Of a stretch of DNA of 44,056 bases, positions 12,491-30,845 are shown one piece after another. Each line of letters starts with the position of its first letter. Within the stretch, counting starts at the first letter, position 1. The position numbers and the translations under genes were made by a program. Source of the stretch: Bacillus sp. ISL-55 (GTDB lineage: Bacteria > Bacillota > Bacilli > Bacillales > Cytobacillaceae); contig NZ_JAGGQU010000019.1 in the NCBI RefSeq assembly GCF_018613155.1, positions 1 through 44,056 on the forward strand, in the 5' to 3' direction. The notes beneath the pieces were generated by a model. It made no database searches. It was not told where the DNA came from and saw only the letters and a list, made by a program, of their open reading frames with translations.

Positions 12491-12505
12491 ATGAAAACGA
12501 TAACA
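12491..12505 (+). promoter_or_regulatory. CcpA cre site upstream of the glucan importer genes
   Basis: ATGAAAACGATAACA matches the Bacillus cre consensus WTGNAANCGNWNNCW at every defined position. It lies ~145 nt before the first permease gene. Carbon catabolite repression of the glucan importer is inferred. No convincing -35/-10 pair could be assigned around it. Confidence 0.65.
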
Positions 12506-12575
12506 ACATGATGGTATCAATATTTTGTTCTATAAACCTAAAACTAAAAAAATGGTACCATAAGCAAAATTCGAT

Positions 12576-12603
12576 GGCTTATAAATGTAAGCCCTTTTTT
12601 TTA
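12576..12603 (+). terminator. Attenuator-like hairpin in the importer leader
   Basis: GGCTTA / TAAGCC with a 6-nt loop is followed by an eight-T run, only ~45 nt before the first permease gene. The upstream gene is on the other strand, so this terminator lies in the operon's own leader. A TAAGC at 12561-12565 could compete for GCTTA, suggesting an antiterminator, but this is inference. Confidence 0.5.
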
Positions 12604-12648
12604 TGATAAAGGTACAAGAAAGACAACAGCAACTAAGGTGGTGAAGAA

Positions 12649-13635
12649 ATGGAAGTCAAGATTCAACAGCCAGTCGAACAACCAGTCAGTGACACCATAA
12701 TGGTAGAGCCTACAAAAAAAGAAAAATTTAAAAAAATTAAAAAGACAATCATTTCTCAAAAGTATTTGCAAGTGATGGCCCTTCTCGGTGTAGTTTGGAT
12801 GTTCGTCTTCAACTATATTCCTATGTACGGGTTAATCATCGCATTTAAGGAATACAGCATCATCAAGACAATCTCAGAAGCACCTTGGGTAGGCTTGATG
12901 CAGTTTAAGGAATTCCTGCAGGATGAGAATTTCTGGATCGTCCTGAAAAACACTCTCGGAATCAGCTTGATTAAATTAATTATCGGGTTCCCGCTTCCAA
13001 TTATATTTGCTCTTTTGCTTAATGAACTTACATCAATGAAGCTTAAGAAAGCGGTTCAAACAATTTCTTACTTGCCGCACTTCATTTCATGGGTTGTACT
13101 TGGAGGGATTTTGACAACATGGCTCGCAGATATCGGGGTCTTAAACGATATTTTGCTAGGTTTAGGGTTGATCAGTGAACGTACGAATTTCCTTGCTTCA
13201 CCTGATAACTTCTGGGCAATCGTCATTCTCTCGGATATATGGAAAGAACTTGGATGGTCAGCAATCATTTATCTTGCAGCAATTGCTGGTGTATCTCCAG
13301 AACTATACGAATCGTCTACGATTGACGGAGCAAATCGCTTCCAAAAGATGTGGCATGTCACATTGCCGTCAATTCGCCCGACAATCACAATTCTTTTTAT
13401 CCTTGCTGTAAGCGGTGTCTTAAATTCAAACTTCGACCAGATCTTGATTCTGCGTAACTCGTTGAATGAAAGCGCCAGTAATGTAATTGATATTTATGTC
13501 TACCAGATGGGTCTGCAAAATGCCCGCTACTCATATGCAACAGCAGTCGGTTTATTGAAAGCAATCATTGCCTTTATCCTGCTCCTGTCTGCTAACAAGA
13601 TTGTCAAGAAACTGAATGGAACATCTTTATTCTAA
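12649..13635 (+). CDS. Carbohydrate ABC transporter permease, LplB-like
   Basis: This 328-aa CUT1 importer permease has six hydrophobic segments after a ~40-residue Lys-rich cytoplasmic N-terminus. The EAA-type loop (ESSTIDGANRFQKMWHVTLP, near residues 224-243) contacts the ATPase. Length and the long N-terminus fit the LplB/YteP group, which usually work with the LplC/YtcP group (next gene, 12 nt away). The context of glucanases indicates import of beta-glucan oligosaccharides. No ATPase gene is in the window; in Bacillus such importers share MsmX, so that is presumed here. The ribosome binding site is AAGGTGGTGA. Confidence 0.9.
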   Translation: MEVKIQQPVEQPVSDTIMVEPTKKEKFKKIKKTIISQKYLQVMALLGVVWMFVFNYIPMYGLIIAFKEYSIIKTISEAPWVGLMQFKEFLQDENFWIVLKNTLGISLIKLIIGFPLPIIFALLLNELTSMKLKKAVQTISYLPHFISWVVLGGILTTWLADIGVLNDILLGLGLISERTNFLASPDNFWAIVILSDIWKELGWSAIIYLAAIAGVSPELYESSTIDGANRFQKMWHVTLPSIRPTITILFILAVSGVLNSNFDQILILRNSLNESASNVIDIYVYQMGLQNARYSYATAVGLLKAIIAFILLLSANKIVKKLNGTSLF

Positions 13636-13647
13636 GGGGGTGAGGTT

Positions 13648-14547
13648 GTGTTTAAACTTTTTAAACGGAACCGGCGAACAACAAGCGAGTACATCTTTGA
13701 CAACATTAACATTCTCATCATGCTCTTTATATGTGCCATAACGATCTACCCAATCTGGTATGTTCTCGTCAATTCACTGAATGACGGTGTTGATGCTATG
13801 AGAGGCGGAATTTACTGGTGGCCTCGAGAGTTTACATTTGAAAACTACAAGGCTGTGTTTCAAACACCAGGTATTGTCACATCCTTTGGCGTAACAATTG
13901 CCAAAACGGTTATCGGAACAATCACACACGTATTCTTTACAGCGATGGTTGCTTATGCCATTTCAAGACGTGACCTTTACGGCAGGAATTTCTACATGCT
14001 GGTCGGTGTCATCACAATGTTTTTCAGCGGTGGATTGATTCCTTACTTCCTATTGATCAGGGATCTTGGATTGTTTGATAACTTCCTTGTATATATCATT
14101 CCAACAATGTTTAACTTCTTCCATCTAATCATCTTTGTATCATTCTTCAGGGAATTGCCAACTTCTCTTGAAGAAGCAGCAAAAATAGATGGAGCGAATG
14201 ACTTTATGATTTTTATCAAAGTAATCATCCCGCTCTCAATGCCGGTTATTGCAACAATCGCATTGTTCCAGGGAGTATACCAGTGGAACGACTACTTTGC
14301 CGGAGTTATCTTTGTAAATAATCCCGACCTGCAGCCAATCCAGACGTATTTATACAAGGTGGTTGCTGAGTCCAGCTCAAATCAGATGATGACGAATGCA
14401 GCAGGATCGATTGCCACGAAGACGGTAACATCCCAGTCTATCAAACTGGCAACGATGGTTGTAACAACACTTCCAATCATGTTAGTCTATCCATTCCTGC
14501 AAAAGTACTTTGTAAAAGGAATGCTGATTGGATCAGTAAAAGGTTGA
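13648..14547 (+). CDS. Carbohydrate ABC transporter permease, LplC/YtcP-like
   Basis: This 299-aa partner permease has six hydrophobic segments. Its EAA loop reads EEAAKIDGANDFMIFIKVIIP, around residues 175-195. It begins with GTG behind a GGGGGTGAGG ribosome binding site. The C-terminus KGMLIGSVKG is characteristic of this subfamily. It forms the importer channel with the preceding LplB-like protein, and the binding protein is encoded ~210 nt downstream after two hairpins. Confidence 0.92.
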   Translation: MFKLFKRNRRTTSEYIFDNINILIMLFICAITIYPIWYVLVNSLNDGVDAMRGGIYWWPREFTFENYKAVFQTPGIVTSFGVTIAKTVIGTITHVFFTAMVAYAISRRDLYGRNFYMLVGVITMFFSGGLIPYFLLIRDLGLFDNFLVYIIPTMFNFFHLIIFVSFFRELPTSLEEAAKIDGANDFMIFIKVIIPLSMPVIATIALFQGVYQWNDYFAGVIFVNNPDLQPIQTYLYKVVAESSSNQMMTNAAGSIATKTVTSQSIKLATMVVTTLPIMLVYPFLQKYFVKGMLIGSVKG

Positions 14548-14561
14548 TCTATTAAACTTCG

Positions 14562-14594
14562 ATTTAAATTTTTCTTCACTGAAGAAATTTAAAT
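14562..14594 (+). promoter_or_regulatory. Hairpin after the permease genes
   Basis: ATTTAAATTTTTCTTC pairs with GAAGAAATTTAAAT (two unpaired T's) around a tight loop. No T-run follows. A likely mRNA 3'-end stabiliser or processing element. Confidence 0.5.
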
Positions 14595-14690: not shown

Positions 14691-14757
14691 GCTCTTTAAA
14701 AGCAGTGTACATTTAGTAATGTGGCCCAAAATAACACAAAAGAGAGAGGGTCAAAAA

Positions 14758-16413
14758 ATGAGGAAAAAATTCTTTTCCAAAGGCTTTTCATTATTGCTAG
14801 TTCTATCATTGGTTTTAGCACTATTTTCAGGCTGTTCCAGCAAGACAAATGAAAACGCTTCCGATGAAAAGGACGCAGATAAACCGAAAGCAAGTGCAGA
14901 TGCACCTGGCTGGCAAGACAATAAAGATCCAATTACGTTTGACTGGTACGTTAACTTTTCATGGTTCGCACATAAATGGGGCGACGATGCTGTCTCCAAA
15001 TATGTAACGGATAAAACTGGTGTATCAGTTAACTTTATTTCACCAGCAGGTAACGAAGCAGAGAAAATGAACACAATGATTGCATCTGGAAAACTTCCTG
15101 ATTTCATCACAATCGGCTGGTGGGAAGATGCTGTTAAGAAGATGATTGAAGGCGAGCTTGTCCTTCCATTAAATGAACTTGCAGATCAATATGATCCATA
15201 TTTTTATAAAGTAGCAGACGGAGCAAAAATCGAGTGGTATAAGCAAGAAGATGGAAACACATATGGCTATCCAAATGCTTCTTCTTCACCAAAGGATTTT
15301 GACAAGTATAAAAACCTTAAGCCATCAAACCAGACATTCCTTGTAAGAAAAGATATGTATGAAGCGATTGGCAGCCCGGATATGAGCACTCCTGAAGGAT
15401 TCTTAAAAGCTCTAGAAGCTGCTAAGGAAAAATACCCTGAAGTGAACGGTGCACCATTGATTCCATTCGGATTGAATGAATTTACAGATGTAGGAAACAC
15501 TTCTCTTGAAGGCTATCTGCAAAACTTCTTGAACATCCCGATGGAAAAAGACGGAAAGGTTTATGACCGCAGTCAGGATCCTGAATATCTTGCATGGTTA
15601 AAGACTTTCAGAGAAGCAAATGACAAAGGACTTCTTGCAAAGGACATCTTCATTGACAAGCGTCCACAAATGGAAGAAAAGATTTCACAAGGCCGTTACT
15701 TCGCAATGCTTTACCAGCGCAGTGACCTTGCAGCACAACAGCACGCATTGTATGCAAAAGATCCTAATTCAGTTTACATTGCAGTAGACGGCCCAGCGAA
15801 CTCTAATGGAGACGGCCCAGCATTAGCGGGTGACAGCATCTCAGGCTGGACAGTGACTTTGATCTCTAAAGATGTAAAAGACAAAGAAAGAGCAATCCAA
15901 TTCCTGACTTACATGATCAGTGAAGAAGGACAAATGGACCTTTACATGGGTAAAGAAGGCGAAACGTATGATATGGTAAACGGTAAGCCTGAATTCAAAC
16001 CGGAAGTTCTTGATCTATTGAACAAAGACCGTGCAGCATTTGACCAGCAGTATGGCGCTTCATTCAAATACTGGATGCTAATGGATACAAACATGAGCCT
16101 TGCATGGGCACCGCCAGCTTCTGAACCATTCAAGCAAATGGAAGACTGGACAAAAGGAAAGACAGTCAGCTATGCAGAATTTGATGGCATCAGCCCAACT
16201 GGAACTTCTGCAGAAGGTGTAGCAGCAAGCAAGATCGCACAGGAATGGGGCAAAACTCTTCCTAAGCTTCTACTAGCTAAATCTGATAAAGAGTTCGATA
16301 AGGTTTTCAACGAATTCCTGAAGAAGCGTGATTCTTTCGGCTATGAAAAAGTTGAAAAGTATCAGCAGGAAGTATATGAAAAGAACAAGGCAAAACTTGA
16401 GTCAGCAAAATAA
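14758..16413 (+). CDS. Extracellular sugar-binding lipoprotein of the glucan importer (LplA-like)
   Basis: This 551-aa family 1 solute-binding protein has a lipobox ending at Cys26 (ALFSGC), a charged linker, then a large two-lobed domain. Its size is typical of LplA/YtcQ-type proteins that bind long oligosaccharides. An in-frame ATG 39 nt upstream would put polar residues before the signal peptide, so I start at the ATG behind AGAGAGGG. Trp/Tyr-rich stretches (TFDWYVNFSWFAHKW; AWAPPASEP) suit carbohydrate stacking. Between its permeases and a two-component system, it should capture laminarin oligosaccharides. The ligand is inferred only. Confidence 0.92.
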   Translation: MRKKFFSKGFSLLLVLSLVLALFSGCSSKTNENASDEKDADKPKASADAPGWQDNKDPITFDWYVNFSWFAHKWGDDAVSKYVTDKTGVSVNFISPAGNEAEKMNTMIASGKLPDFITIGWWEDAVKKMIEGELVLPLNELADQYDPYFYKVADGAKIEWYKQEDGNTYGYPNASSSPKDFDKYKNLKPSNQTFLVRKDMYEAIGSPDMSTPEGFLKALEAAKEKYPEVNGAPLIPFGLNEFTDVGNTSLEGYLQNFLNIPMEKDGKVYDRSQDPEYLAWLKTFREANDKGLLAKDIFIDKRPQMEEKISQGRYFAMLYQRSDLAAQQHALYAKDPNSVYIAVDGPANSNGDGPALAGDSISGWTVTLISKDVKDKERAIQFLTYMISEEGQMDLYMGKEGETYDMVNGKPEFKPEVLDLLNKDRAAFDQQYGASFKYWMLMDTNMSLAWAPPASEPFKQMEDWTKGKTVSYAEFDGISPTGTSAEGVAASKIAQEWGKTLPKLLLAKSDKEFDKVFNEFLKKRDSFGYEKVEKYQQEVYEKNKAKLESAK

Positions 16414-16425
16414 ATAACTATGGAA

Positions 16426-16615: not shown

Positions 16616-18478
16616 ATGGATTTTCAAAAGACAATAAAAAAAGCTGGATCATGGTTAAATCGACTCTCCCTGCAACAAAAGCTGATTGCCTTATATATCA
16701 TTATTATTATCATTCCTATTATCATTTTCATTTCTATTTATTCCAGTAACGTTTATGGCAGGGCGATCAATGAAATCAGGATTAAAAGTGAAAATGCTCT
16801 TGAAATCGAGAAAATCCATATAAAAAACAATATTGAATCTATGAGACGAACGGCTCAAATGGTCGTTTCGGATATGGAATTCATCGACTTTGTTAAAAGC
16901 AGGAACGAAGCAAATATTGATCAGCTAATTGATTTCAGAATGAACGAGTTGTCGAATGTGACCAGGCTGCAGGCTAATAATCCAGCTATTGAAAATATCC
17001 GGCTGTATACCACCAATCCATATATAACCGAGATGTGGCCGATACTTTTTAAAGAAAATCGAATCATGGAAAAGCCATGGAGGGAAGAGGTCATCAACAG
17101 GAATGGGATGGAGGTATGGTGGTTCGACCAGCAGACCGAGGATGTCCTTGAAAGACTTCCATCACAAAACACAGCTAAGATCTCATTGTTGCGGGAATTG
17201 GATTACCCAAAGGATGAACATTTAGGCATCATTGAAATCAATATGTTTTTGAAAAACTTCTTCCCTAAAATGTTCGGAACGGTGCAGGACCCTGATTCGG
17301 TCTATGTGGTCATTGATAAGGATAACAATATGATCAGGAATTTTCATCACACCTATTTTGAAGATGCCGGTATTGACACTGAAGATCTGAAACGTAAATT
17401 CAACAAATCAAAACATGAAGGCACAGGCAGTTTTGAATTTGAAAACAATGAAACTCCGTACCTGGTTATCACTGCCTATATTGATGATTTGGATGCATAC
17501 CTGCTGAATGTCATTTCCCTTGAAGGCCTTTATGCTGAAACGGCAAAGACCAGGAATGTTATTTTTAGCGGAATTATCTTTCTTGTTATTATTCTTTCTT
17601 TTGTTACCTATGTATTGGTTTTATTGCTTTTGAAAAAAATGTACAAATTGAAAGATTCAATGAAGCAGGTAGAACAAGGAGACTTTTCTGTTGATGTTGA
17701 GATTAATGGACAAGATGAGATTTCGGAGCTTGCATTTCATTTTAAAAGTCTTCTTGGTAAAATGAATGGATTGATCGCCGAAGCTGTCAATAAGCAGGCG
17801 ACAGCCAAAGAAACAGAATTAAAGGCCTTGAAAACGCAAATTGACTCTCATTTCCTTTACAATACGTTGGAAAACATCAAGATGATGGCAGAAATAGAAG
17901 GGCAGTACCCTATTTCTGATGCCGTGACCTCCCTTGGTGAAATGATGCGCTACAATCTTAAATGGAAGAATGATTTTGTAGTGCTGGATGAAGAGTTGAA
18001 TTATATAAAGAATTATGTAGACATTATGAATTTGCGTCTGGATGGATTACTAACCTTGAATATTGATATCCCCCATGAATTGCATGATCAGGAAGTTCTG
18101 AAAATGTCGCTGCAGCCGATCATTGAGAATGCCATTAAACATGGAATCATTCCAAATGACCAGAAAAATGAAGGCATCCTGCAGGTGAATGGGATATGTT
18201 CAGAGGACCATATCATCATTGAGATAAAAGATAATGGTGTGGGAATGACAAAAGAGGAATGTGAATCCCTCAACTTATCCATTCAAACAGGGGTAAAAAC
18301 TCAAAATTCCGGTTCTAAAGGTGGAAATGGCATAGGTATCCACAATGTGAATGAGAGAATCCAGCTTTACTATGGACCGGAGTATGGAGTGTTTGTGACA
18401 AGTGAGAAAGGCGAATTCACGATGGTAACGATAAAAATGCCTTGTAAAATCATGAAAGGAGGCAGCCAAAGTGTATAA
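16616..18478 (+). CDS. Sensor histidine kinase, YesM-like
   Basis: This 620-aa membrane kinase has TM1 at residues ~24-43, an extracellular Cache-type sensor of ~270 residues, TM2 at ~315-342 and a HAMP domain. The His_kinase domain has phosphoacceptor His412 in SHFLYNTLENI, and the C-terminal ATPase has an N-box (IIENAIKHG) and G-box (DNGVGM; GGNGIGIHNV). This architecture is the YesM/LytS group that in Bacillus and Paenibacillus controls polysaccharide utilisation genes. It sits between the importer and the glucanases, so it probably detects oligosaccharides or the loaded binding protein. The ribosome binding site is weak. A TATAAT lies at 16577, without a clear -35. It overlaps the regulator gene by 8 nt. 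Confidence 0.92.
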   Translation: MDFQKTIKKAGSWLNRLSLQQKLIALYIIIIIIPIIIFISIYSSNVYGRAINEIRIKSENALEIEKIHIKNNIESMRRTAQMVVSDMEFIDFVKSRNEANIDQLIDFRMNELSNVTRLQANNPAIENIRLYTTNPYITEMWPILFKENRIMEKPWREEVINRNGMEVWWFDQQTEDVLERLPSQNTAKISLLRELDYPKDEHLGIIEINMFLKNFFPKMFGTVQDPDSVYVVIDKDNNMIRNFHHTYFEDAGIDTEDLKRKFNKSKHEGTGSFEFENNETPYLVITAYIDDLDAYLLNVISLEGLYAETAKTRNVIFSGIIFLVIILSFVTYVLVLLLLKKMYKLKDSMKQVEQGDFSVDVEINGQDEISELAFHFKSLLGKMNGLIAEAVNKQATAKETELKALKTQIDSHFLYNTLENIKMMAEIEGQYPISDAVTSLGEMMRYNLKWKNDFVVLDEELNYIKNYVDIMNLRLDGLLTLNIDIPHELHDQEVLKMSLQPIIENAIKHGIIPNDQKNEGILQVNGICSEDHIIIEIKDNGVGMTKEECESLNLSIQTGVKTQNSGSKGGNGIGIHNVNERIQLYYGPEYGVFVTSEKGEFTMVTIKMPCKIMKGGSQSV

Positions 18479-19982
18479 AGTTCTTATAGCTGACGATGAG
18501 AAAAATATCAGATTGGGTATACAGGCTATGATCAAGCGGGAATATCCAAATTTCGAAACTTTCATTGCATCAGATGGACAGGAAGCCCTGGACGGTGTTT
18601 TGAAAAATAAACCGGATATCGTGATCACTGATATCAAAATGCCAAGGATGGATGGCATTCAATTAATCAAAGAGCTCCAACAGCAAGAAGACATAAATAC
18701 ATCGATTGTGATTCTCAGCGGTTACGATGATTTCACGTATGCCAAGGAAGCGATCAAACATAAGGTAAAGGATTACTTATTGAAGCCGGTAAACCGGACA
18801 GAGCTATTCAAAACATTGAATACCATCATAGAAGAACTGGAAAACAGCCAGAAAATGACCTACCAGCATATGGATGACTACCGTGCCAGTCAACTGAATT
18901 ACATTTTGCTTAATCCTAATATTCAACAGGCAGATGTAGAAGATCTGTATAAGAAAATGAAAATAGATTCGTATCCGGATGGTTACTATGTGGGAATCAT
19001 TCAGGTGGATGGAGATATAGATGGTGAGGACTTTCTTAATAAGATCAATCAGCTGATCCATTCCAGCAGTGATAGCATCCCGTTCCTTGATAAAGACGGC
19101 CGGGTGACAATCATTTCATCAGACTTTGAGCAATTTTCGTTTCTGAAAGAACAGCTTGGCAGGGACAGACATTTGATTTTTACCATTGGCATTAGCGAAA
19201 AGGCGCATGATATAAGGGAATTTAAAAAAACTTATGGCCAGGCAGCCACAGCAATCAAGTATCATTTCCTCTATCCGCGTCGTCAGACTATTTTATATGA
19301 GAATGTTAAAGAGAAACCAGAAGTGGACTCTCTCCCAGCTGACCTTATCAATAAAATTTCCAATATGCTGGGGACTGAACGGGAAAAGGAAATTAAAGAT
19401 AACCTCAGGCAGGTTATGGATTTCGATGTCATTGCCCACAGCAGCATCGACTATCTTGAAAACCTTAATGAGGAAATCAATGAGACGATCTTCAAAGGCT
19501 TTTTCAAGAGGTTGGGGGAAGAATCTCTTGTAACGTTCGAGCTTTTAAATAAGATAGACAATATCTATAACTTTGACAACTTCCATGAATACTTCCATGC
19601 CCTCGAGGATTTGCTGATGAGAATCCATGAATACAATAAACAGGTAAAAGCAGTGTATTCAGAGCAAAAGTACATGGATCGGGCAATTGCGTATATTAGG
19701 GAAAATTATCATAAGGATTTGAATTTAGCTGTAGTCGCTAATTACATTTCATTGAATTATTCCTATTTCAGCCATATGTTCAAGGAGTATATTGGACAAA
19801 ACTTCGTTGACTACTTGAAGATGGTCAGAGTAGAAAGTGCAAAGCGGCTGCTGAAAGAGACGGATTTCAAGATACTGGAAATCAGTGAGATGGTAGGGTA
19901 CAAAAACCCAAAACAATTTGCGAGAGTGTTCCGTGATGTTGAAGGGATTTCACCAAAAGAATATCGGGAACTGAATGGATGA
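18471..19982 (+). CDS. AraC-family response regulator, YesN-like
   Basis: This 503-aa regulator has a receiver domain at residues 1-120 with acidic residues near the start (ADDEKN), phosphoacceptor Asp54 (IVITDIKMPRMDG) and Lys in LLKPV. A ~270-residue middle region of unknown fold follows, then a C-terminal AraC DNA-binding domain (~400-503, two helix-turn-helix motifs, ending GISPKEYREL). It begins with GTG behind AAAGGAGG and overlaps the kinase gene, so the two form a dedicated pair. It should activate the adjacent glucan genes when phosphorylated. No binding site could be defined by eye. Confidence 0.93.
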   Translation: MYKVLIADDEKNIRLGIQAMIKREYPNFETFIASDGQEALDGVLKNKPDIVITDIKMPRMDGIQLIKELQQQEDINTSIVILSGYDDFTYAKEAIKHKVKDYLLKPVNRTELFKTLNTIIEELENSQKMTYQHMDDYRASQLNYILLNPNIQQADVEDLYKKMKIDSYPDGYYVGIIQVDGDIDGEDFLNKINQLIHSSSDSIPFLDKDGRVTIISSDFEQFSFLKEQLGRDRHLIFTIGISEKAHDIREFKKTYGQAATAIKYHFLYPRRQTILYENVKEKPEVDSLPADLINKISNMLGTEREKEIKDNLRQVMDFDVIAHSSIDYLENLNEEINETIFKGFFKRLGEESLVTFELLNKIDNIYNFDNFHEYFHALEDLLMRIHEYNKQVKAVYSEQKYMDRAIAYIRENYHKDLNLAVVANYISLNYSYFSHMFKEYIGQNFVDYLKMVRVESAKRLLKETDFKILEISEMVGYKNPKQFARVFRDVEGISPKEYRELNG

Positions 19983-19983
19983 A

Positions 19984-20009
19984 GAGGGCTGAATAGGCTC
20001 TCTTTTTTC
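19984..20009 (+). terminator. Terminator after the response regulator gene
   Basis: GAGGGCT pairs with GGCTCTC around GAATA, followed by TTTTTTCTGTTTTTT. Confidence 0.7.
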
Positions 20010-20123
20010 TGTTTTTTCAAGTTATTAATGGGGGGCAAATTAAATCTCTATAAAAGAATGCTCAATCAGTATTAGGTAATAAGTTTTATAATTTCTCGGC
20101 ACAAATGGAAAAGTCCCCCGGGG

Positions 20124-20799
20124 TTCGGACAAAATCTTGTCGGAGGGGCCTGTAATTTGTCCGAAGTCACCTCGGGTTCGGACAAAATCACGCTGGAGCG
20201 TCTTCAATTTGTCTGAAGTCCCCTCAGGTTCGGACAAAATCACGCTGGAACGTCTTCAATTTGTCTGAAGTCCCCCCAAGTTCGGACAAAATCTTGCTGT
20301 AGCGTCTTCAATTTGTTCGAAGTCCCCCCAGGTTCAGACAAAAGCACGCTGATGCGTCTACAATTTGTCTGAAGTCCCCCCAAGTTCGGACAAAATCTCG
20401 CTGGAGCGTCTCCAATTTGACTGAAGTCCCCCTAGGTTCAGACAAAATCACGCCGGTGCAGGTTAAATTTGTCTGAAGTCCCCCCAAGTTCGGACAAAAT
20501 CTCGCAGGAGCGTCATCAATTTGTCTGAAGTCACCCCGGATTCGGACAATATCAAGCCGGTGCGTCATCAATTTGTCTGAAGTCCCCCCAAGTTCGGACA
20601 AAAACTCGCTGGAGCGTCATCAATTTGTCTGAAGTCACCCCGGATTCGGACAAAATCTCGCAGGAGCGTCATCAATTTGTCCGAAGTCCCCTCTGGTTCG
20701 GCCAAATTCTCACTGGAGCGTCTTCAATTTGTCTGAAGTCACCCCAAGTTCGGACAAAATCTCACCGGAGCATCTTCAATCTGTCCGAAGTAACTCCCA
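20124..20799. repeat. 52-bp tandem repeat array, 13 copies
   Basis: Each unit runs TTCGGACAAAAT, ~20 variable nt (often CGCTGGAGCGTC), AATTTGTCTGAAGTCC, CCCAAG. Thirteen units lie head to tail. TTCGGACAAA and TTTGTCYGAA are reverse complements, so each unit can form a 10-bp hairpin with a ~20-nt loop. The end of one unit can equally pair with the start of the next across a ~12-nt loop. The spacing is not a multiple of three, and ORFs of 60-100 codons on both strands shift frame between units, so the array is not coding. It lies between the regulator gene and the glucanase operon. Confidence 0.9.
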
Positions 20800-20910: not shown

Positions 20911-20939
20911 TTGACACCCTAAACAAAATTCTCTATCTC
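20911..20939 (+). promoter_or_regulatory. Candidate promoter of the glucan enzyme operon
   Basis: A perfect TTGACA is followed after 17 nt by TATCTC, a poor -10 box. A weak -10 suits a promoter needing an activator such as the YesN-like regulator. About 85 nt separate it from the first gene. Confidence 0.5.
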
Positions 20940-21024: not shown

Positions 21025-21831
21025 GTGGAGTCAAAAAATCAGGGCAATTTAAGCAAAGAAATGATGACGCTTTCAAATTCAGAAGCGGAATGGAAGTTAG
21101 TTTGGGAAGAGAATTTTAATCTTTCTGAGATAAATGAAAACAACTGGAATTTTGTTGAGGCTGGCAATGGCTTCGGGAATGAAGAATCCCAGTACTATAC
21201 AAGACGGAATGAAAACGCTCGAATCGAGAATGGCATGCTGGTGCTTGAGGCGAGGAATGAGGAGTATAAAGGGATGGATTATACATCCGCGAAATTGACG
21301 ACTAAAGGCAAGGCAGCTTGGACTTACGGACGATTCTCATTTCGGGCTAAATTGCCTGAAGGCCAGGGAATCTGGCCTGCCATCTGGATGATGCCAGAGG
21401 ATATGGAAAAGTATACTGGATGGCCAGCCTGCGGGGAAATCGACATCATGGAGAGTATCGGCCATCAACCTGGTACGGTTTATGGAACGCTCCATTATGG
21501 CATGCCTCACACCTACACAGGAGACAACTTCACTCTTCCGGAAGGTAAGAAGTTCTCTGATGATTTCCATGTCTTCACCCTTGATTGGGAACCAGGCGAA
21601 TTCAGATGGTATGTAGATGATGTCCTCTATGCAAGACAGACTGAATGGTTCAGCAAGGCTTCGGAATCAGAAGATAAGCAGCCTGGTTTTGCACCATTTG
21701 ACCGCGAATTTTACCTGCAGCTGAATCTTGCTGTCGGTGGAAAATGGCCGGGATACCCTGATGAAACAACCCAGTTCCCACAGAGAATGACAGTTGATTA
21801 CATCAAAGTTTACGAGAGAAAAGATCAATAA
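21025..21831 (+). CDS. GH16 beta-1,3-glucanase (laminarinase-type), no signal peptide
   Basis: This 268-aa protein is a bare GH16 catalytic domain. The active-site motif GEIDIMES is intact: nucleophile Glu138, Asp140 and acid/base Glu143. Flanking signatures IWPAIWMMP and TLDWEPGEFRWYVDD point to the endo-beta-1,3(4)-glucanase branch. There is no signal peptide or membrane segment; the N-terminus MESKNQGNLSKE is polar. It therefore should act in the cytoplasm on imported oligosaccharides, unusual for GH16. The start is GTG behind AAAGGGG. It is the first gene of a GH16-GH1-phosphorylase-GH30 cluster. Confidence 0.9.
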   Translation: MESKNQGNLSKEMMTLSNSEAEWKLVWEENFNLSEINENNWNFVEAGNGFGNEESQYYTRRNENARIENGMLVLEARNEEYKGMDYTSAKLTTKGKAAWTYGRFSFRAKLPEGQGIWPAIWMMPEDMEKYTGWPACGEIDIMESIGHQPGTVYGTLHYGMPHTYTGDNFTLPEGKKFSDDFHVFTLDWEPGEFRWYVDDVLYARQTEWFSKASESEDKQPGFAPFDREFYLQLNLAVGGKWPGYPDETTQFPQRMTVDYIKVYERKDQ

Positions 21832-23211: not shown

Positions 23212-26200
23212 ATGGAAAGATACCGCTTTGATGATAATCAATATCTTGTAATCGAGGAATTTGACCAGGCAAAAACATTCTCAAGCTTCCTTCCTGGTCT
23301 GGCAGGTTTATACGGAATACCAATCTGGGCGTTCTACGTCAACAGAGGGCAGGGAATCGTCAGCTTTGGTGTGCAGGATAAAAATCATGCTATAACTGAA
23401 TTTTTCCCTGCAAACCAGGCATATCAGCGAGTAGGGACCAATGGTTTCCGCACATTTATCAAGCTGAATGGAAGTACCGTTTTCGAGCCATTCTCTTCAT
23501 ACGGCAGCAAAAAAGACCGAAAGAGAACGATGTCTATAAAAGAAAATGAAATGAAGCTGGAAGAAATCAACCATCAATATGGCGTGAAAACAGTAGTAAC
23601 GTATTTCACGCTTCCGAATGAGAACTTTGGAGCTCTTGCGAGAAAGGTGGAGGTCGAGAATCTTTCTGATGGTCCGCTTGAACTTGAGGTCATTGATGGG
23701 CTTCCTGCAATCATCCCGTTCGGAATTGATGATGCTGCCTATAAAGCAGTGGGAAATACACTAAAAAGCTGGATGGATGTATTCAACCTTGAAAATGGCA
23801 TTCCGTACTACCGAGTCCGGTCATCAACGAATGATTCGGCGGAAGTTGAAGAGGTGACAAAGGGACATTTTTATTTAAGCTTTGATGATGAAGGCCAACT
23901 GATTAAACCAATTGTGGACGCGGATTTGATTTTTGGTTCGAACAGTTCGCTGTCTTATCCTGATGAGTTTGAGAAATTATCTGTTAAAGAGGTATCAGCA
24001 GCTGAGCCGGTAACCTCCAATAAAGTTCCTTGCGGTTTCTCTGGTTTGGGCAGAGTGCTTGAGCAAGGTGGGAAATTGAGCTTCCATACATTGATCGGAC
24101 ATGTGAAGGACATTGAGATCATCAATGAAAAAGCAGCTGACATTAGAGCTGCCGGATATATGGAAAGAAAATACGAAGAAGCGCAGAGTCTGGTTACGGA
24201 GATTACGAGGGATGTTGAAACAAAGACAGCGTCCCCTCTATTTGATGCCTATGTAAACCAAAGCTACCTTGACAATGTGCTGCGCGGCGGTTTTCCAATT
24301 GAAGTGGAAACGGATGATTCTGCCTTTACTTATTATGTTTTTTCCCGTAAACACGGAGATCTGGAGCGGGATTATAACTTTTTCTCGCTTGCGCCTGAAT
24401 ACTTCTCTCAGGGGAACGGCAACTTCCGTGATGTGAACCAGAACCGCAGGAATGATGTGTTTTTCCATCCTGAGACGGGTGACTATAATATCAAGCTGTT
24501 CATGAGCCTGATCCAGGCGGATGGCTATAACCCGCTCGTCGTAAAAGGAGCAAGCTTTGAACTAAGTGATCAGTCTGATTGGGGATGGCTGGATGAACTG
24601 GTTCCAGTCCAAAAGGATGCAGATTTCATTAAAAAGAAGCTGAGCGGAACCTATACACCAGGCGATTTGCTTCAAACGATTTCTGACAGCGATATTCAGC
24701 TTGCATCTTCACTTCCGGATTTCCTGAAAAAAGTTCTTTCAAGGAGCTCCCAGAACATTGAAGCGGAGTTTGGAGAAGGGTACTGGATGGACCACTGGAC
24801 GTACAATCTCGACCTGGTTGAAAACTATTTGAAGGTTTATCCGGAAAATAAAGCGCAGCTATTGTTCGATGATTATGGCTACAAATATTTCCACAGTCCG
24901 GTATTTGTGAATCCGCGTTCTGAAAAATATGTACTGGCTAATGGTAAGGTCCGCCAATACGATGCCATCAATGAATTTGGACATCAGAAAGAGTCGAATT
25001 GGGTGAGGAGACCTGACGGTGAGTTCTTTACATCCAATCTTTACAGCAAATTGTTCTCGCTAGCATTGCTGAAATTTTCTACATTGGACCCTTATGGAAT
25101 GGGTGTGGAAATGGAAGCGAATAAGCCAGGCTGGAATGACTCGATGAATGGCCTGCCAGGAATTTTCGGTTCAGCCATGAGTGAGACATTAGAGCTGAAA
25201 CGCCTGCTTGAATTTGTCATTGCTTCTGGTGAGGCTGGTGACTTGGAGATTACACTTCCTGCAGAAGTGGTCGAACTGGCTGAGACAGTTGTAGAATTCC
25301 TGAATCAATTTGAAAATGGCGAACTCGATGATTACAGCTACTGGAATCAAACAGCGGCTGCCCGTGAAAAATATCGCGAATCAGTGAAAAACGGCTTCGA
25401 AGGTACGGAAAAGAATATTGAGTTACAAAAGCTTACTTCTTATGCAAAGCAAATGCTTCTTAAAACAAAAGCAGGAATAGACAAAGCGACAGATCTTGGA
25501 AATGGACTCATCCCAACTTATTTCTCCTACGAAGCAGTTGACTGGGAAAAGATTGTCGATGACAACGGAAATGAAATCCTGAATAAAAAAGGCTTGCCGT
25601 TAGTTCAGGTCAATAGCTTTGAGGTGTCTGTTCTTCCGCATTTCCTTGAAGGTCCTGCAAGGGCATTGAAGACTGCGGATCTTCAAACAGCCTTGTCGAC
25701 ATATCAACATGTTAGAAACTCTGAAATTTACGACAGCAAGCTGAAAATGTACAAAACTTCCGGTTCTCTTGAAGACCAAACATTTGATATCGGCCGGGCG
25801 AGAGCATTCACCCCGGGATGGCTTGAGCGCGAATCCATCTTCATGCATATGGAATTCAAGTATCTGCTCAGTGTCTTGAAGTCCGGATTGTATGATGAGT
25901 TCTATGAAGATATCAACTATGCGATGCCGCCATTCATGGATGCAGAAGTGTATGGAAGAAGTGTTCTCGAGAACTCATCCTTTATCGCTAGCAGCGTGAA
26001 CCCTGATTCCAGCCTCCATGGACAAGGTTTTGTCGCGAGGCTGAGTGGAACAACCGCAGAATTCTTAAGTATCTGGCAAATGATGATGATGGGGAAAAAG
26101 CTTTTTGACGTAAACGAAGAAGGTTTGACGCTGAAGCTTGAGCCGATCCTTCCTTCATGGCTTTTTGATTCAGAGGGCAAGGTGCAATTTACAATGTTGG

Positions 26201-26391
26201 GCAAGACTCAGGTAACCTATCACAATCCATCTAGGAGAAATACTTTCGGTGCAGAAGGTGCAAAGACAGTAAAGTATGTACTCCATATGAATGGAGAAGA
26301 GGTAGAGGTTCATGGCGACCAGCTGCAAGAATCCTATGCACAAGCTGTTAGGGAAGGAAAAGTTTCAAAGATAGATGTTTACCTAGATTAA
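23212..26391 (+). CDS. Large beta-glucan phosphorylase-like protein (GH94/GH161 type)
   Basis: This 1059-aa cytoplasmic protein resembles the GH94 clan of inverting phosphorylases. The best marker is PGWNDSMNGLPG, with Asp643 in the position of the GH94 catalytic Asp. Other segments are the N-terminal beta-sandwich region (residues 1-300), the (alpha/alpha)6 core with HGDLERDYNFF and FRDVNQNRRNDVFF near residues 383-425, and a C-terminal HGQGFVARLSGTTAEF segment. At this length it is longer than GH94 disaccharide phosphorylases and closer to GH161, known to phosphorolyse beta-1,3-glucan oligosaccharides. I infer glucose-1-phosphate release from imported laminarin oligosaccharides. It is 26 nt after the GH1 gene. 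Automated annotation may call it cellobiose phosphorylase. Confidence 0.75.
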   Translation: MERYRFDDNQYLVIEEFDQAKTFSSFLPGLAGLYGIPIWAFYVNRGQGIVSFGVQDKNHAITEFFPANQAYQRVGTNGFRTFIKLNGSTVFEPFSSYGSKKDRKRTMSIKENEMKLEEINHQYGVKTVVTYFTLPNENFGALARKVEVENLSDGPLELEVIDGLPAIIPFGIDDAAYKAVGNTLKSWMDVFNLENGIPYYRVRSSTNDSAEVEEVTKGHFYLSFDDEGQLIKPIVDADLIFGSNSSLSYPDEFEKLSVKEVSAAEPVTSNKVPCGFSGLGRVLEQGGKLSFHTLIGHVKDIEIINEKAADIRAAGYMERKYEEAQSLVTEITRDVETKTASPLFDAYVNQSYLDNVLRGGFPIEVETDDSAFTYYVFSRKHGDLERDYNFFSLAPEYFSQGNGNFRDVNQNRRNDVFFHPETGDYNIKLFMSLIQADGYNPLVVKGASFELSDQSDWGWLDELVPVQKDADFIKKKLSGTYTPGDLLQTISDSDIQLASSLPDFLKKVLSRSSQNIEAEFGEGYWMDHWTYNLDLVENYLKVYPENKAQLLFDDYGYKYFHSPVFVNPRSEKYVLANGKVRQYDAINEFGHQKESNWVRRPDGEFFTSNLYSKLFSLALLKFSTLDPYGMGVEMEANKPGWNDSMNGLPGIFGSAMSETLELKRLLEFVIASGEAGDLEITLPAEVVELAETVVEFLNQFENGELDDYSYWNQTAAAREKYRESVKNGFEGTEKNIELQKLTSYAKQMLLKTKAGIDKATDLGNGLIPTYFSYEAVDWEKIVDDNGNEILNKKGLPLVQVNSFEVSVLPHFLEGPARALKTADLQTALSTYQHVRNSEIYDSKLKMYKTSGSLEDQTFDIGRARAFTPGWLERESIFMHMEFKYLLSVLKSGLYDEFYEDINYAMPPFMDAEVYGRSVLENSSFIASSVNPDSSLHGQGFVARLSGTTAEFLSIWQMMMMGKKLFDVNEEGLTLKLEPILPSWLFDSEGKVQFTMLGKTQVTYHNPSRRNTFGAEGAKTVKYVLHMNGEEVEVHGDQLQESYAQAVREGKVSKIDVYLD

Positions 26392-26409: not shown

Positions 26410-27744
26410 ATGGAATTAAAAATCATTCAGAGTGCTAAGAATACCGGAGAACGTTTTGCTGACAAGGGCAATCTTTCTTTTACAGATGAGACAGGCCAAG
26501 ATCTTGTGATGAAGCTTGATCCAGAAAAGAAATATCAAACCTTCATGGGATTTGGCGGAGCTTTTACAGAGGCAGCTGCTTACACGCTGGCGCAAATTCC
26601 TGAGGAAGAACGCGCAAAAATAATCGACAGCTATTTTAACCAGGAGACAGGTCTTGGTTACAGCCTTGGCAGGACCCATATCCATAGCTGCGATTTTGCC
26701 CTGGAGAATTACACTTATGTCGAAGAAAATGACGTTGAGTTAAAGACTTTTTCAATTGAACGGGAACAGAAATACGTATTGCCGCTAATTAAGGACGCTA
26801 TGAAGGCGAGGGGAGAAGAATTGACGATTCTTTCTTCTCCCTGGAGCCCTCCAGCCTGGATGAAGACGAATAATGAAATGAACAATGGCGGAAAGCTGAA
26901 GTCAGAATTTAATGATACATGGGCTTTGTATTACACGAAATACATCAAGGCAATGGAATCAGAAGGAATTCCAATCTGGGGAATCACTGTCCAGAATGAG
27001 CCGGAAGCAACACAGGTCTGGGATTCCTGCAGATATACAGCAGAAGAAGAACGTGACTTTGTGAAAAATCATTTGGGTCCAGTCATGGAGCAGGAAGGTC
27101 TGGGTGATAAGGAAATCATCATCTGGGACCACAACCGGGATATTGCCTATGAAAGGGCAAAAACGATTTTATCAGATTCGGAGGCTGCAAAATATATTTG
27201 GGGCACAGGGCTCCACTGGTATGTATCAGAAGAATTCGAGAATCTGAGCAAGATTCATGAAGATTTCCCTGATAAGCATCTGATTTTTACCGAAGGCTGC
27301 ATTGAAGGCGGAGTACAGCTAGGCGCATGGCATACGGGAGAACGTTACGCAAGAAACATCATGGGTGATATCAACAACTGGCTTGAAGGCTGGATTGACT
27401 GGAATATCGTCCTGAACGAACAGGGCGGGCCGAACCATGTAGGCAATTATTGCGACGCACCGGTCATCGTCGATACTAAAACTGGAGAGGTTCACTATAA
27501 CAGCTCGTTTTACTATATTGGACACTTCAGCAAATACATTAAGCCGAACGCAGTTAGAATTGGACATGAACTAAACCATGAATCTTTAAAAGCAGTATCA
27601 TTCAAAAACGAAGATGGCTCGATTGTTGCTGTTGTCATGAATGATGCAGACACTACAGAGTCATTCACACTATCGGTCGGAGGCAAAACTGCCAAAGCCG
27701 AGCTGCCTGATCATTCGATTACAACATTCCTTATAGAAAGTTAA
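26410..27744 (+). CDS. GH30 glycosidase (glucosylceramidase-like; possible beta-1,6-glucanase)
   Basis: This 444-aa protein has the GH30 fold: a (beta/alpha)8 barrel with acid/base Glu197 (VQNEPEA) and nucleophile Glu295 (FTEGC), plus a C-terminal beta-domain. There is no signal peptide, so it is cytoplasmic. Bacterial GH30 enzymes with this layout include beta-glucosidases and beta-1,6-glucanases. Next to beta-1,3-glucan enzymes, removing beta-1,6-linked glucose branches of laminarin is the likely role. This is inference from context. The gap to the preceding gene is only 18 nt. Confidence 0.85.
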   Translation: MELKIIQSAKNTGERFADKGNLSFTDETGQDLVMKLDPEKKYQTFMGFGGAFTEAAAYTLAQIPEEERAKIIDSYFNQETGLGYSLGRTHIHSCDFALENYTYVEENDVELKTFSIEREQKYVLPLIKDAMKARGEELTILSSPWSPPAWMKTNNEMNNGGKLKSEFNDTWALYYTKYIKAMESEGIPIWGITVQNEPEATQVWDSCRYTAEEERDFVKNHLGPVMEQEGLGDKEIIIWDHNRDIAYERAKTILSDSEAAKYIWGTGLHWYVSEEFENLSKIHEDFPDKHLIFTEGCIEGGVQLGAWHTGERYARNIMGDINNWLEGWIDWNIVLNEQGGPNHVGNYCDAPVIVDTKTGEVHYNSSFYYIGHFSKYIKPNAVRIGHELNHESLKAVSFKNEDGSIVAVVMNDADTTESFTLSVGGKTAKAELPDHSITTFLIES

Positions 27745-27750
27745 GATCTG

Positions 27751-27815
27751 CCACCTCCTTGTCATGACAAAATGTACTTTACGCTATGTGATGAATATGA
27801 AAAGGAGGTGGTTTT
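27751..27815 (+). terminator. Terminator after the intracellular enzyme genes
   Basis: CCACCTCCTT pairs perfectly with AAGGAGGTGG (10 bp) across a ~41-nt loop, followed by TTTTATTTT. The 3' arm looks like a ribosome binding site. It lies ~50 nt before the secreted GH16 gene, so partial read-through is possible. Confidence 0.65.
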
Positions 27816-27863
27816 ATTTTAGAAGTCTTTTAACACTTGTAAAATAATGAAGGAGGAATTGGT

Positions 27864-30800
27864 ATGAAGAAGACCTTGGCTCTTTTGTTGAGTGCCATGA
27901 TGATTTTGCCTGCAGCCAGTATCGCAGCTCCTAAAGATAAGCTGGGAAATGAAGACCTGAAAAACAAACAGAACAAATCCGAGTGGTCCCTGGTCTGGTC
28001 AGATGAGTTCAGTGGCCCGGAAATCGACCGCAGCAAATGGACCTATGATATCGGGAACTGGATCGTGGACGAGGATGGAAATGGAATAACTCCTGGCTGG
28101 GGGAACAATGAGAAAGAGTATTATACGGATTCAAATGAAAACGCTTTTATTGACGATGGCAAGCTAGTCATAAAAGCAAAAAAAGAGCAGGTTACGGATC
28201 AATTTGGAACGTATGATTATACTTCAGCCAAGCTGAAAACAAAAGGCCTGTTCAGCAAAAAATACGGCCGATATGAAATCAAAGCAAAGCTTCCGGTTGG
28301 TAAGGGACTTTGGCCGGCAATCTGGATGCTTCCTGAGGAAGATAAATATGGTACATGGGCAGCCTCGGGTGAGATTGATATTATGGAGTCATGGGGCAGC
28401 AGGCCGCATACGGTGGCAGGAACAATTCACTATGGCGAAGGCTGGCCAAATAACAAGTATACAGGCAAGGAATTCGAACTTCCTGAAAACAGAGGGATCG
28501 ACAAGTGGCATACATATGCGCTTGAGTGGGAACCAGGAGAATTGCGCTGGTATGTAGATGGAGAACTTTATCAAACTCAGAACAAATGGTATTCAAAAGG
28601 AAAGGATAACGCAGCAAACTTTTCATACCCTGCACCTTTTGACCAGGAATTCTATTTAGTTATGAACCTCGCAGTTGGCGGATGGTTTGACGGGGAACCT
28701 GATGAGAAGACGAAATTCCCAAGCCAGATGGAAGTCGACTATGTCAGGGTTTACGATCTGAAAAAACGCGATTACCGCGAACCGGTTGAACCGCCGGCAG
28801 AGCCTGTGGAATTGCCTGCAGGAGCTAAGCAACCGCTGGAAGATGGGAATCTGATTTATGACCAGAATTATGAAGAGCCGATTACCTTTGTGGATCAGCC
28901 TGGTGTAGAACTAAATCCTGTGTATTGGAACTTTGTGAAGTTACCAGAGTTTGGTGGTGATGGCGCGTTTTCATTAGATAATCTTAATGAGCAACATTTT
29001 GCAAAGATCGATATTGCTAATCCTGGAACCCAGCTGTATTCCTTGCAAATGATACAGAACCTTTCTCTTGGCAATGGCGGAAAATACAAAGTCAGCTTTG
29101 ACGCCAAGTCGAATGCTGCCAGAAACATAATGGTAAAAGTCGGTGCGGGCAGTGAAAGAGGATGGGCAAAGTATTCAAATGAGGAGTCCTTCCAGCTTTC
29201 TGATGAATTGCAAACCTATGAATTCACTTTTGATATGCTGAATGATACGGATATTGCAGCCCGACTTGAATTTAATCTTGGCGGGAACGGAACAAATCCA
29301 GTTTGGATTGGCAATGTAAGAGTCGAGGATATCACTGGCGAAGCTGTAGACGAAGATGCGCCTAAACAGCCGCTGCCAAATGGGAACCATGTTTATAATG
29401 GAACATTCGATCAAGGTGGCATGGATCGGATGATGTTCTGGAATTTCTCAGTTAAAGATGCAGCTGCAACGGCATCTGTCTCTGAAAACACACGAGAACT
29501 GCTTGTGGCAATTGAAAATGGCGGCAGTCATCCTGAAGCAGTCCAGCTTGACCAACAAGGGATGAACCTGGTTGCGGGAAATGATTATAAGCTTAGCTTT
29601 AAAGCAAGAGCAGACGAACCAAGAACGATTCAAGCTGCCCTGTTGAATAAATCAGGCACAACTGATTACTCTGGCATTAACATAATTGAGCTCACTTCCA
29701 ATATGGAAGAGCATACATTTGAATTTACAATGCCAGAGGATGCTTCTGATCAAGAAGCGCAACTTGTCTTTAACTTTGGCGGCGGAGATGGCGATGTCTA
29801 TTTGGATGATGTAGTTCTGCTGAAGACCTCGAACATCCCTGATTATGGGAACATTGACTTGTATCCGCTGAAAAATGGTGATTTTGCGGATGGTATTGAT
29901 CCATGGACGAATTACATCCACTTTGATGCTCAAGCCGGTATCTCAGTGGAAAATGGCGAAGCAAAAGTGGCAATCGACAGTGAAGGCAATGAACCATGGA
30001 GTGTCCTTTTGGAACAAGGAAACTTAAGCCTTGCTCAAGGAGTCGTATATGAGCTTAGCTTTGCCGCTCGTTCTACAGTGGAAAGAAAGGCTGAAGTTAC
30101 GGTTGAAAACGCTGCTTACACCAGATTCATAAGTGAGTCCATAACAATTAGTGACGAAATGCAGCAATTCACGTATGAGTTCACAATGCCTGCCGATGAA
30201 ATCGTATCCTTGAAGATGCTGCTTGGCAAGACTGCTTTGTCACCAATCGGCCAACATGATGTATTCATTGATAATGTGGTTTTGAAGGTTAAGGACGCAC
30301 CGAACGAGCAGGTCCCAGAGCCCGTTTCCACTCCTGGAATTGATAATGGAAACTTTTTAGATGGAACAAAAAGTTGGACCGCATGGTGGGGCGACCAGTG
30401 GAGCGGTAATGCTGAAGGTACAATGGATGTTGAAAACGAAGAACTGAAGGTTGCGATTTCACAGGTTGGCGGTGCATCGTATTCTCCTCAGGTCTTTCAG
30501 AAGGACTTGCTTTTTGAAAATGGCAGCAGCTATACAGTAACTTTTGAGGCAAGAGCTGACGTGCCAAGGAAAATGAATGTCAATATAGGGAAAGAGCTTT
30601 CATATGATCCCTGGTTCATTGGTTATGTGCCAACGAGAACAATTGATTTAACTACAGAAATGAAAACATACACATTCACTTTTGCCATGACTGAAGAAAC
30701 CTTTAACGATGGCAAAATCGTTTTCGAGCTCGGCAATATTTTAGAAGGCAATGCAGCAACAAATGTTTATCTCGACAATGTAAGCATCATAAAAAATTAA
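27864..30800 (+). CDS. Secreted multidomain GH16 endo-beta-1,3-glucanase
   Basis: This 978-aa extracellular enzyme has a signal peptide (MKKTLALLLSAMMILPAA, cleavage near residue 22). A GH16 domain spans ~41-298, with GEIDIMES placing nucleophile Glu170, Asp172 and acid/base Glu175. A Pro/Glu linker (~303-320) follows. Four CBM4/9-like beta-sandwich modules then begin near residues 324, 502, 668 and 826, each opening with an (N/D)GN or NGDF motif and containing YxLSFxAR/YTVTFEARAD strands. No SLH or LPXTG anchor is visible. It probably binds insoluble or long beta-1,3-glucan and cuts it for the importer. The ribosome binding site is GAAGGAGG. It ends the locus. Confidence 0.93.
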   Translation: MKKTLALLLSAMMILPAASIAAPKDKLGNEDLKNKQNKSEWSLVWSDEFSGPEIDRSKWTYDIGNWIVDEDGNGITPGWGNNEKEYYTDSNENAFIDDGKLVIKAKKEQVTDQFGTYDYTSAKLKTKGLFSKKYGRYEIKAKLPVGKGLWPAIWMLPEEDKYGTWAASGEIDIMESWGSRPHTVAGTIHYGEGWPNNKYTGKEFELPENRGIDKWHTYALEWEPGELRWYVDGELYQTQNKWYSKGKDNAANFSYPAPFDQEFYLVMNLAVGGWFDGEPDEKTKFPSQMEVDYVRVYDLKKRDYREPVEPPAEPVELPAGAKQPLEDGNLIYDQNYEEPITFVDQPGVELNPVYWNFVKLPEFGGDGAFSLDNLNEQHFAKIDIANPGTQLYSLQMIQNLSLGNGGKYKVSFDAKSNAARNIMVKVGAGSERGWAKYSNEESFQLSDELQTYEFTFDMLNDTDIAARLEFNLGGNGTNPVWIGNVRVEDITGEAVDEDAPKQPLPNGNHVYNGTFDQGGMDRMMFWNFSVKDAAATASVSENTRELLVAIENGGSHPEAVQLDQQGMNLVAGNDYKLSFKARADEPRTIQAALLNKSGTTDYSGINIIELTSNMEEHTFEFTMPEDASDQEAQLVFNFGGGDGDVYLDDVVLLKTSNIPDYGNIDLYPLKNGDFADGIDPWTNYIHFDAQAGISVENGEAKVAIDSEGNEPWSVLLEQGNLSLAQGVVYELSFAARSTVERKAEVTVENAAYTRFISESITISDEMQQFTYEFTMPADEIVSLKMLLGKTALSPIGQHDVFIDNVVLKVKDAPNEQVPEPVSTPGIDNGNFLDGTKSWTAWWGDQWSGNAEGTMDVENEELKVAISQVGGASYSPQVFQKDLLFENGSSYTVTFEARADVPRKMNVNIGKELSYDPWFIGYVPTRTIDLTTEMKTYTFTFAMTEETFNDGKIVFELGNILEGNAATNVYLDNVSIIKN

Positions 30801-30808
30801 GTTCTTTA

Positions 30809-30845
30809 GGGGGCAGAACAGCAATTCCATTCTGCCTCTTTTTCT
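30809..30845 (+). terminator. Terminator after the secreted glucanase gene
   Basis: GGCAGAA / TTCTGCC, extendable by a G-U and a G-C pair, with an 11-nt loop and CTCTTTTTC after it. Confidence 0.75.

Follow-up and report, generated by a model that had tools for sequence, protein, structure and literature searches.

Loci for the utilization of laminarin-type beta-1,3-glucans have been described both in Gram-positive bacteria and in marine Bacteroidetes. In Bacillus weihaiensis Alg07, consecutively numbered genes encode glycoside hydrolases (GH) of the families GH16 (Bw3268) and GH1 (Bw3267), a hypothetical protein (Bw3266) and a GH30 enzyme (Bw3265), with another GH16 gene (Bw3263) two genes on by number; both GH16 proteins are reported to be active on laminarin, and Bw3263, Bw3267 and Bw3268 were upregulated in quantitative reverse-transcription PCR at 24 h in kelp culture (PMC5128808). 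A GH161 enzyme was later placed in this locus (PMC6484121), and the two papers together suggest that it is Bw3266. PapP, a GH161 enzyme of Paenibacillus polymyxa, is described to phosphorolyze beta-1,3-oligoglucans until the disaccharide is left; in the same work, most importers of the GH161 loci studied were found to lack an ATPase gene (PMC6484121). Among the polysaccharide utilization loci (PULs) of marine Bacteroidetes, the laminarin PUL of Muricauda includes a GH30_1 enzyme without signal peptide, which is thought to be a beta-1,6-glucosidase (PMC13188888). Here, we analyze a locus of ten genes in Bacillus sp. ISL-55, found on contig C12 of its genome (4.5 Mb in 69 contigs); this whole contig, 44,056 bases long, is referred to as the window in the following. 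Judging from its gene content and its counterparts in relatives, we consider it very probable that this is a beta-1,3-glucan (laminarin-type) utilization locus of the GH161 kind.

The ten genes, taken from a list of open reading frames (ORFs) and from Pfam, NCBIfam and PDB matches, are the following (ABC, ATP-binding cassette):

12649..13635, plus strand: ABC permease A (PF00528)
13648..14547, plus strand: ABC permease B (PF00528)
14719..16413 (likely start 14758), plus strand: sugar-binding lipoprotein related to AlgQ1/AlgQ2 (PDB 5xs8, E 2e-17; AlgQ2, E 4e-12)
16616..18478, plus strand: YesM-type sensor histidine kinase (HAMP, His_kinase, HATPase_c)
18471..19982, plus strand: YesN-type AraC-family response regulator (Response_reg, HTH_18)
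21025..21831, plus strand: predicted GH16 endo-beta-1,3-glucanase without signal peptide, the inner GH16 (PF00722; laminarinases among the top PDB matches, E 4e-70 at best)
21851..23185, plus strand: predicted cytoplasmic GH1 beta-glucosidase (TIGR03356, 599 bits, cut-off 478.5)
23212..26391, plus strand: predicted cytoplasmic GH161 beta-1,3-oligoglucan phosphorylase (PDB 9qqk, GH161A, E 1.2e-274)
26410..27744, plus strand: cytoplasmic GH30, candidate beta-1,6-glucosidase, GH30_1-like (PF02055; no signal peptide)
27864..30800, plus strand: secreted GH16 with four CBM_4_9 modules (PF00722, four PF02018; signal peptide by eye)

An earlier annotation of this DNA, made from the sequence alone (the sequence-only reading), had proposed a beta-1,3-glucan locus of the same ten genes, and the ORFs and database matches agree with it in position and family throughout, including the importer of two permeases and a binding lipoprotein, the YesM/YesN pair and the secreted GH16 with its four binding-like modules. 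The catalytic residues that it had pointed out are likewise present in the translations, with the motif GEIDIMES in both GH16 proteins, NEP and ITENG in GH1, and QNEP and FTEG in GH30, where E197 and E295 are invariant in 21/21 aligned homologs. It had also counted four signal-less enzymes. For GH16, GH1 and GH30, the families hold, and the inner GH16 and the GH30 cannot carry a signal peptide, since an in-frame stop lies directly before the start of the former and one codon before that of the latter. The fourth enzyme, left as ‘GH94/GH161-like’, is by similarity a GH161: its match to GH161A (E 1.2e-274) covers query residues 9–1059, and with 93.5 bits against an NCBIfam cut-off of 1150 it falls outside the GH149 phosphorylases. 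Across the 19 loci with an orthologue of the inner GH16, no in-frame codons precede the aligned start in 14, and 13 to 97 further codons do so in the remaining five (L073, L074, L077, L078 and L082).

The assignment of the GH30 is less straightforward. Among its solved relatives, human glucosylceramidase (GH30_1) scores higher, at 283 bits, than the endo-1,6-glucanase BT3312 (PDB 5ngk, GH30_3), at 212 bits. BT3312 is described to have a tryptophan six residues after the nucleophile and a cysteine pair (PMC5481569), and, by position counting only, neither has a counterpart in our alignment of 21 GH30 sequences. Against an assignment to GH30_1, the best NCBIfam model is the one of BT3312, with 297.6 bits, below its cut-off of 700. 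The enzyme is thus perhaps a GH30_1 member, and because of the bit scores, the unmatched BT3312 residues and the signal-less GH30_1 of Muricauda, we prefer the removal of 1,6-linked glucose inside the cell as its function.

Compared with the described systems, the locus most resembles that of B. weihaiensis, with which it shares the families of all five enzyme genes (Bw3263–Bw3268) and the order GH16–GH1–GH161–GH30–GH16, as far as the latter can be read from gene numbers (PMC5128808) and from the description of the GH161 (PMC6484121). The two differ in the GH30, which is predicted to be secreted in B. weihaiensis (PMC6484121) and lacks a signal peptide here. The PapP cluster of P. polymyxa likewise combines GH161, GH1 and an ABC importer, but GH16 and GH30 are not named in its description (PMC6484121). 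The likeness to the PULs of Formosa and Muricauda lies in the endo-glucanases and, for Muricauda, in the signal-less GH30_1, whereas these PULs are described with GH17 enzymes and a major facilitator superfamily transporter in place of GH161 phosphorolysis and an ABC importer (PMC13188888); since none of the 20 window ORFs scanned contains a SusC or SusD domain, the locus is not a Bacteroidetes-type PUL. As B. weihaiensis has the same families in a matching order, GH161 included, the window locus is not new in kind. The sequence-only reading had implied that it was, but a Gram-positive laminarin locus of these families and GH161 loci that mostly lack ATPase genes had both been published (PMC5128808, PMC6484121). 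The locus is largely ordinary; the new detail lies in its importer, its control sites and a linked reductase.

For the binding lipoprotein, the start at 14758 chosen in the earlier annotation is likelier than that at 14719; its lipobox, LALFSGC, was recognized by eye, and neither Pfam nor NCBIfam gave a match. A domain scan detected no ABC ATPase among the ten proteins, as had been claimed. The importer is presumably of the YtcQP-YteP type, and its ATPase is probably an MsmX-type gene located elsewhere in the genome. One such gene (C25:180860-181951, 508 bits, above the family cut-off) follows an ORF with a PucR/CdaR-like C-terminal end, and no permease gene was seen in the 6.8 kb before it (both by eye), while the contig ends 0.4 kb after it. 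Another gene that also exceeds the cut-off (C31:78217-79299, 446 bits), next to galactoside genes (by eye) at the end of its contig, is a less favored candidate. The B. subtilis importer YtcQP-YteP, which takes up galacturonan and rhamnogalacturonan, is believed to be energized by MsmX (PMC5730181).

The distribution of these genes was studied in a sample of 151 relatives, 33 of which possess GH161. Searches used one E-value cut-off per protein, chosen by us and fixed beforehand (binding protein 1e-150, the aldo/keto reductases AKR1 and AKR2, described below, 1e-95 and 1e-125), and we give p-values at the level of genera, because shared ancestry renders genome-level values meaningless as probabilities. 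An orthologue of the binding protein was found in 20 of the 151 relatives, and 20/20 of these carry GH161 (5/5 genera against a background of 15/78, p 1.4e-4; outside the own genus 4/4, p 7e-4); in all four other genera that have it, it adjoins GH161. The own genus, as grouped by the tool, comprises 21 genomes and is presumably Mesobacillus, given that the nearest named GH161 relatives come from Bacillus sp. ISL-37, -41 and -45 and Mesobacillus selenatarsenatis (93–95%). Within it, 18 of 21 genomes have GH161, and the whole order permease–permease–binding protein–kinase–regulator–GH16–GH1–GH161–GH30–GH16 recurs in one stretch in 12 of the other 17 of these. One of the 12, L078, has its inner GH16 in two pieces. 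L072, also of this genus, departs from the order in both GH16 genes, as described below. Four further own-genus loci are cut by contig ends (G004, G005, G006 and G010), with the binding protein on another contig in G005 and, in two pieces, in G004. All ten genes are likewise present in Bacillus pinisoli (L009/L082), where two aldo/keto reductase genes are inserted among them and the first permease is cut by the end of the stretch. A record titled Chryseobacterium sp. ISL-80 (L003) has a GH161 91% identical to that of the window and an identical gene order, and its name therefore looks wrong.

The candidate control elements in and around the locus are the following:

12492..12505, plus strand: catabolite-responsive element (cre)-like operator TGAAAACGATAACA, candidate CcpA site upstream of the importer (14/14 positions of TGNAARCGNWWWCA)
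12554..12585, plus strand: conserved promoter-region block GGTACCATAAGCAAAATTCGATGGCTTATAAA (alignment)
12576..12593, plus strand: terminator-like hairpin in the importer leader (scan)
19981..20005, plus strand: terminator-like hairpin after the regulator (scan)
20111..20791, no strand: 52-bp tandem array of 13.1 copies between the two units (repeat finder)
27751..27811, plus strand: long hairpin between GH30 and the secreted GH16 (arms CCACCTCCTT / AAGGAGGTGG, T-rich tail; read directly)
30810..30845, plus strand: terminator-like hairpin GGCAGAA...TTCTGCC with T-rich tail (read directly)

The cre consensus is TGNAARCGNWWWCA, and the cre-like site lies 157 nt before the first gene of the locus. 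A best match of at least 12/14 positions occurs in 18/18 loci, the window included, 148–158 nt before the start, and reaches 13 or 14 positions in 16 of them; among random 190-mers of comparable composition, 12 positions are attained by 16% and 13 by 1.3%. The conserved block downstream contains AAGCAAAATTC (12562–12572), a candidate response-regulator site. Its pattern, AARCAAAATTC, stands within conserved blocks of both promoter regions, that of the importer (12562) and that of the enzymes (20921–20931), and matches the genome 22 times, compared with 12 times for the reversed pattern; we regard it as no more than a candidate for a regulator site. For the importer leader (12576–12593), a terminator/antiterminator switch was considered and discarded as a claim: the stem is lost in four loci (L074, L077, L078 and L016), which makes a role of the hairpin doubtful, while its ATAAGC...GCTTAT part is conserved.

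The sequence-only reading had described the genes as one contiguous run. They do stand in order, but the run is broken between regulator and inner GH16 by the hairpin at 19981–20005 and the 52-bp array. Of the 14 own-genus loci with the regulator, counting the window, 13 have a T-tailed hairpin after it, some of them with a different stem; the hairpin of L074 has no T tail. Arms like those of the hairpin after GH30 recur in many aligned relatives. The last hairpin, whose end at 30845 coincides with the end assigned to the locus before, was missed by the hairpin scan because its loop exceeds the length permitted there. Considering the hairpins after the regulator and after GH30 and the separate promoter regions of importer and enzymes, the locus probably forms at least two, perhaps three, transcription units. 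We relied only on features that are kept in relatives or were read directly, since the overall counts are close to those in shuffled sequences (46 promoter-like sites against 39.1, 15 terminator-like ones against 14.4). Rfam yielded nothing within 12491–30845 at gathering scores.

The sequence-only reading had drawn these genes together into a single pathway from polymer to glucose and glucose-1-phosphate, and this fits the gene content and order, the co-occurrence, the MsmX-type ATPase elsewhere, the glucokinase and phosphoglucomutase-family genes that are present in the genome, and the B. weihaiensis locus. In the following outline, we infer every substrate, laminarin included, as well as the sequence of reactions, the nature of the inducer, the assignment of the ATPase and the functions of the control sites. 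The secreted GH16, with its binding modules, would cut the polymer outside the cell, and the resulting oligosaccharides, probably including 1,6-branched ones, would be bound by the lipoprotein and enter the cell via the two permeases, with a shared MsmX-type ATPase, whose gene lies elsewhere, supplying the energy. Once they are in the cytoplasm, the inner GH16 would shorten long oligomers, the GH30_1-like enzyme strip off beta-1,6-linked glucose and GH161 phosphorolyze the chain to glucose-1-phosphate down to the disaccharide, which GH1 would split to glucose. The YesM/YesN pair would switch the system on, and CcpA would probably repress it on glucose.

Several observations weigh against this interpretation, and some of them would better suit a composite island, in which the importer and YesM/YesN serve another sugar, such as acidic oligosaccharides of alginate or pectin, and merely adjoin a beta-glucan operon with its own promoter. 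AlgQ1 and AlgQ2, to which the binding protein is related, are alginate binders, and they are its only specifically named solved relatives; a terminator-like hairpin and a repeat array part the two halves; and the B. subtilis YtcQP-YteP importer serves the uptake of galacturonan and rhamnogalacturonan (PMC5730181). Moreover, the binding protein was not detected at the cut-off in 13 of the 33 genomes with GH161, and some of their GH161 loci carry another importer. The enzyme half was also found by itself in G006, where no binding protein (E 1e-150) and no kinase (E 1e-60, in a search without positive control) was found; as its contig begins inside the repeat array, this may possibly be an assembly loss. 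Yet not one of the GH161-less genomes among the 151 yielded the binding protein at the cut-off used, the protein adjoins GH161 in four genera besides the own one, and no acid-sugar enzyme is found among the ten proteins, so that we judge a composite island to be quite improbable.

Other difficulties concern the system as a whole. The secreted GH16 is missing at this place in L072 and L066 (genome G005), and the frame of the inner GH16 is broken in L072 and L078, wherefore parts of the locus seem dispensable; furthermore, the laminarin genes of B. weihaiensis were unchanged in first-stage RNA sequencing (PMC5128808). It is also quite conceivable, though not what we expect, and compatible with a GH161-kind locus, that the same machinery has a different natural substrate, be it fungal 1,3/1,6-glucan, callose, curdlan or mixed-linkage glucan. 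GH16, GH30, GH161 and GH1 enzymes suit any 1,3(1,6)-glucan, and the relatives are spread over several genera; laminarin is favored by several top solved relatives of the inner GH16, which are named laminarinases, and by the nearest published locus, which comes from a kelp degrader (PMC5128808).

The 52-bp array that parts the two units of the window seems to be peculiar to this place, as a genome-wide search found its pattern at 10 places, all of them here. Of the 14 own-genus loci, again counting the window, 11 have an array of 52-bp units (3.5 to 26.8 copies) between regulator and inner GH16, and the array in this gap of L078 has another unit. A period of 51–52 bp with other units recurs at 4133–4602 of the window and in L005 (21191–21452), L006 (14736–15197) and L081 (1473–1725). 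The second window array (51-bp period, 9.2 copies) has a unit unlike that at 20111 and lies near a branched-chain amino acid transporter gene (4847–6217). Of seven array units (51–52 bp) compared with 200 shuffles each, that of L075 has inverted repeats reached by 1.5% of shuffles; in the other six they are within chance (19% to 50.5%). A literature search of limited scope returned nothing on 52-bp intergenic tandem repeats in Bacillus. Between the enzyme genes and the MATE/reductase genes of many relatives, a different repeat was observed, with 2–4 copies of a 41–42-bp unit (AATGTGGTCGAATAATTTTAAAATTCGCC...), for example in L003 (17804–17913), L004 (17622–17744) and L013 (7723–7856); the repeat finder did not report it in the window.

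Beyond a MATE efflux gene (30944–32314), which separates them from the locus and has no match between the secreted GH16 and AKR1 in L004 (on a contig shared with L071) and L070, lie two reductase genes:

32344..33279, plus strand: AKR1, aldo/keto reductase linked to GH161 loci (orthologues in 23/151 relatives, 22 with GH161)
33314..34303, plus strand: AKR2, YghZ-like aldo/keto reductase with a weaker link (NF007388, 479.6 bits, cut-off 448; PDB)

By genus, AKR1 accompanies GH161 in 7/8 cases against a background of 15/78 (p 1.8e-5). Each of the 16 own-genus genomes with AKR1 has it at most 7 kb from GH161, and the distance is at most 4 kb in G139 and for one of the two copies in G114; in G094, G107, G120 and G124, it lies away from GH161. 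The association is incomplete in both directions: AKR1 is missing in 11 of the 33 GH161 genomes, including G002 and G010 of the own genus, and present without GH161 in G117. AKR2 is far commoner (51/151 relatives, 26 with GH161; 9/23 genera, p 0.006). Both genes are the ones inserted in the locus of B. pinisoli, and AKR2 stands between GH1 and GH30 in L085 and L086. AKR1 has distant solved relatives only (best 114 bits), and a literature search of limited scope found nothing that ties an aldo/keto reductase to a laminarin utilization locus. Any role for these enzymes, such as acting on the mannitol ends of laminarin or detoxifying carbonyls, is a guess.

Some GH161 loci combine the enzymes with other import and control genes. 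L087, from another member of the Bacillaceae, resembles the window in GH161, GH30 and GH1, but a LacI-type regulator and a different sugar importer take the place of the YesM/YesN module. In the Halobacillus locus L012, a binding protein (69% identical) and YesM/YesN come first, a LacI-type regulator and that other importer next, and GH161 and GH30 last; as this stretch begins in the binding protein, the permeases of its first module are not seen. The permeases of the other importer, in the LacI-type loci, are 25–28% identical to those of the window. A wider proposal, that GH161 loci are modular, with a GH161–GH30 core and either a LacI-type or a YesM/YesN/AlgQ-related importer module, and that AKR1 has a hidden function in the pathway, for instance on mannitol-ended laminarin or on reactive carbonyls from rapid phosphorolysis, strikes us as unlikely.

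Elsewhere in the window, two tandem S-adenosylmethionine riboswitches (minus strand, 11114–11410) precede a methionine-type ABC importer (NIL-domain ATPase, permease and NlpA lipoprotein), and the contig end falls inside a 16S ribosomal RNA gene (43763–44056).

What this locus adds is modest, namely the co-occurrence of binding protein and GH161, the alternative modules for import and control, and the linkage of AKR1. No new kind of system is opened up; rather, a Gram-positive laminarin locus already in the literature is extended to the majority of the genomes sampled in one genus, and a binding protein related to AlgQ is linked with enzymes for beta-1,3-glucan. The analysis also proposes that side chains may be removed inside the cell, and it names a reductase whose possible role can be tested.

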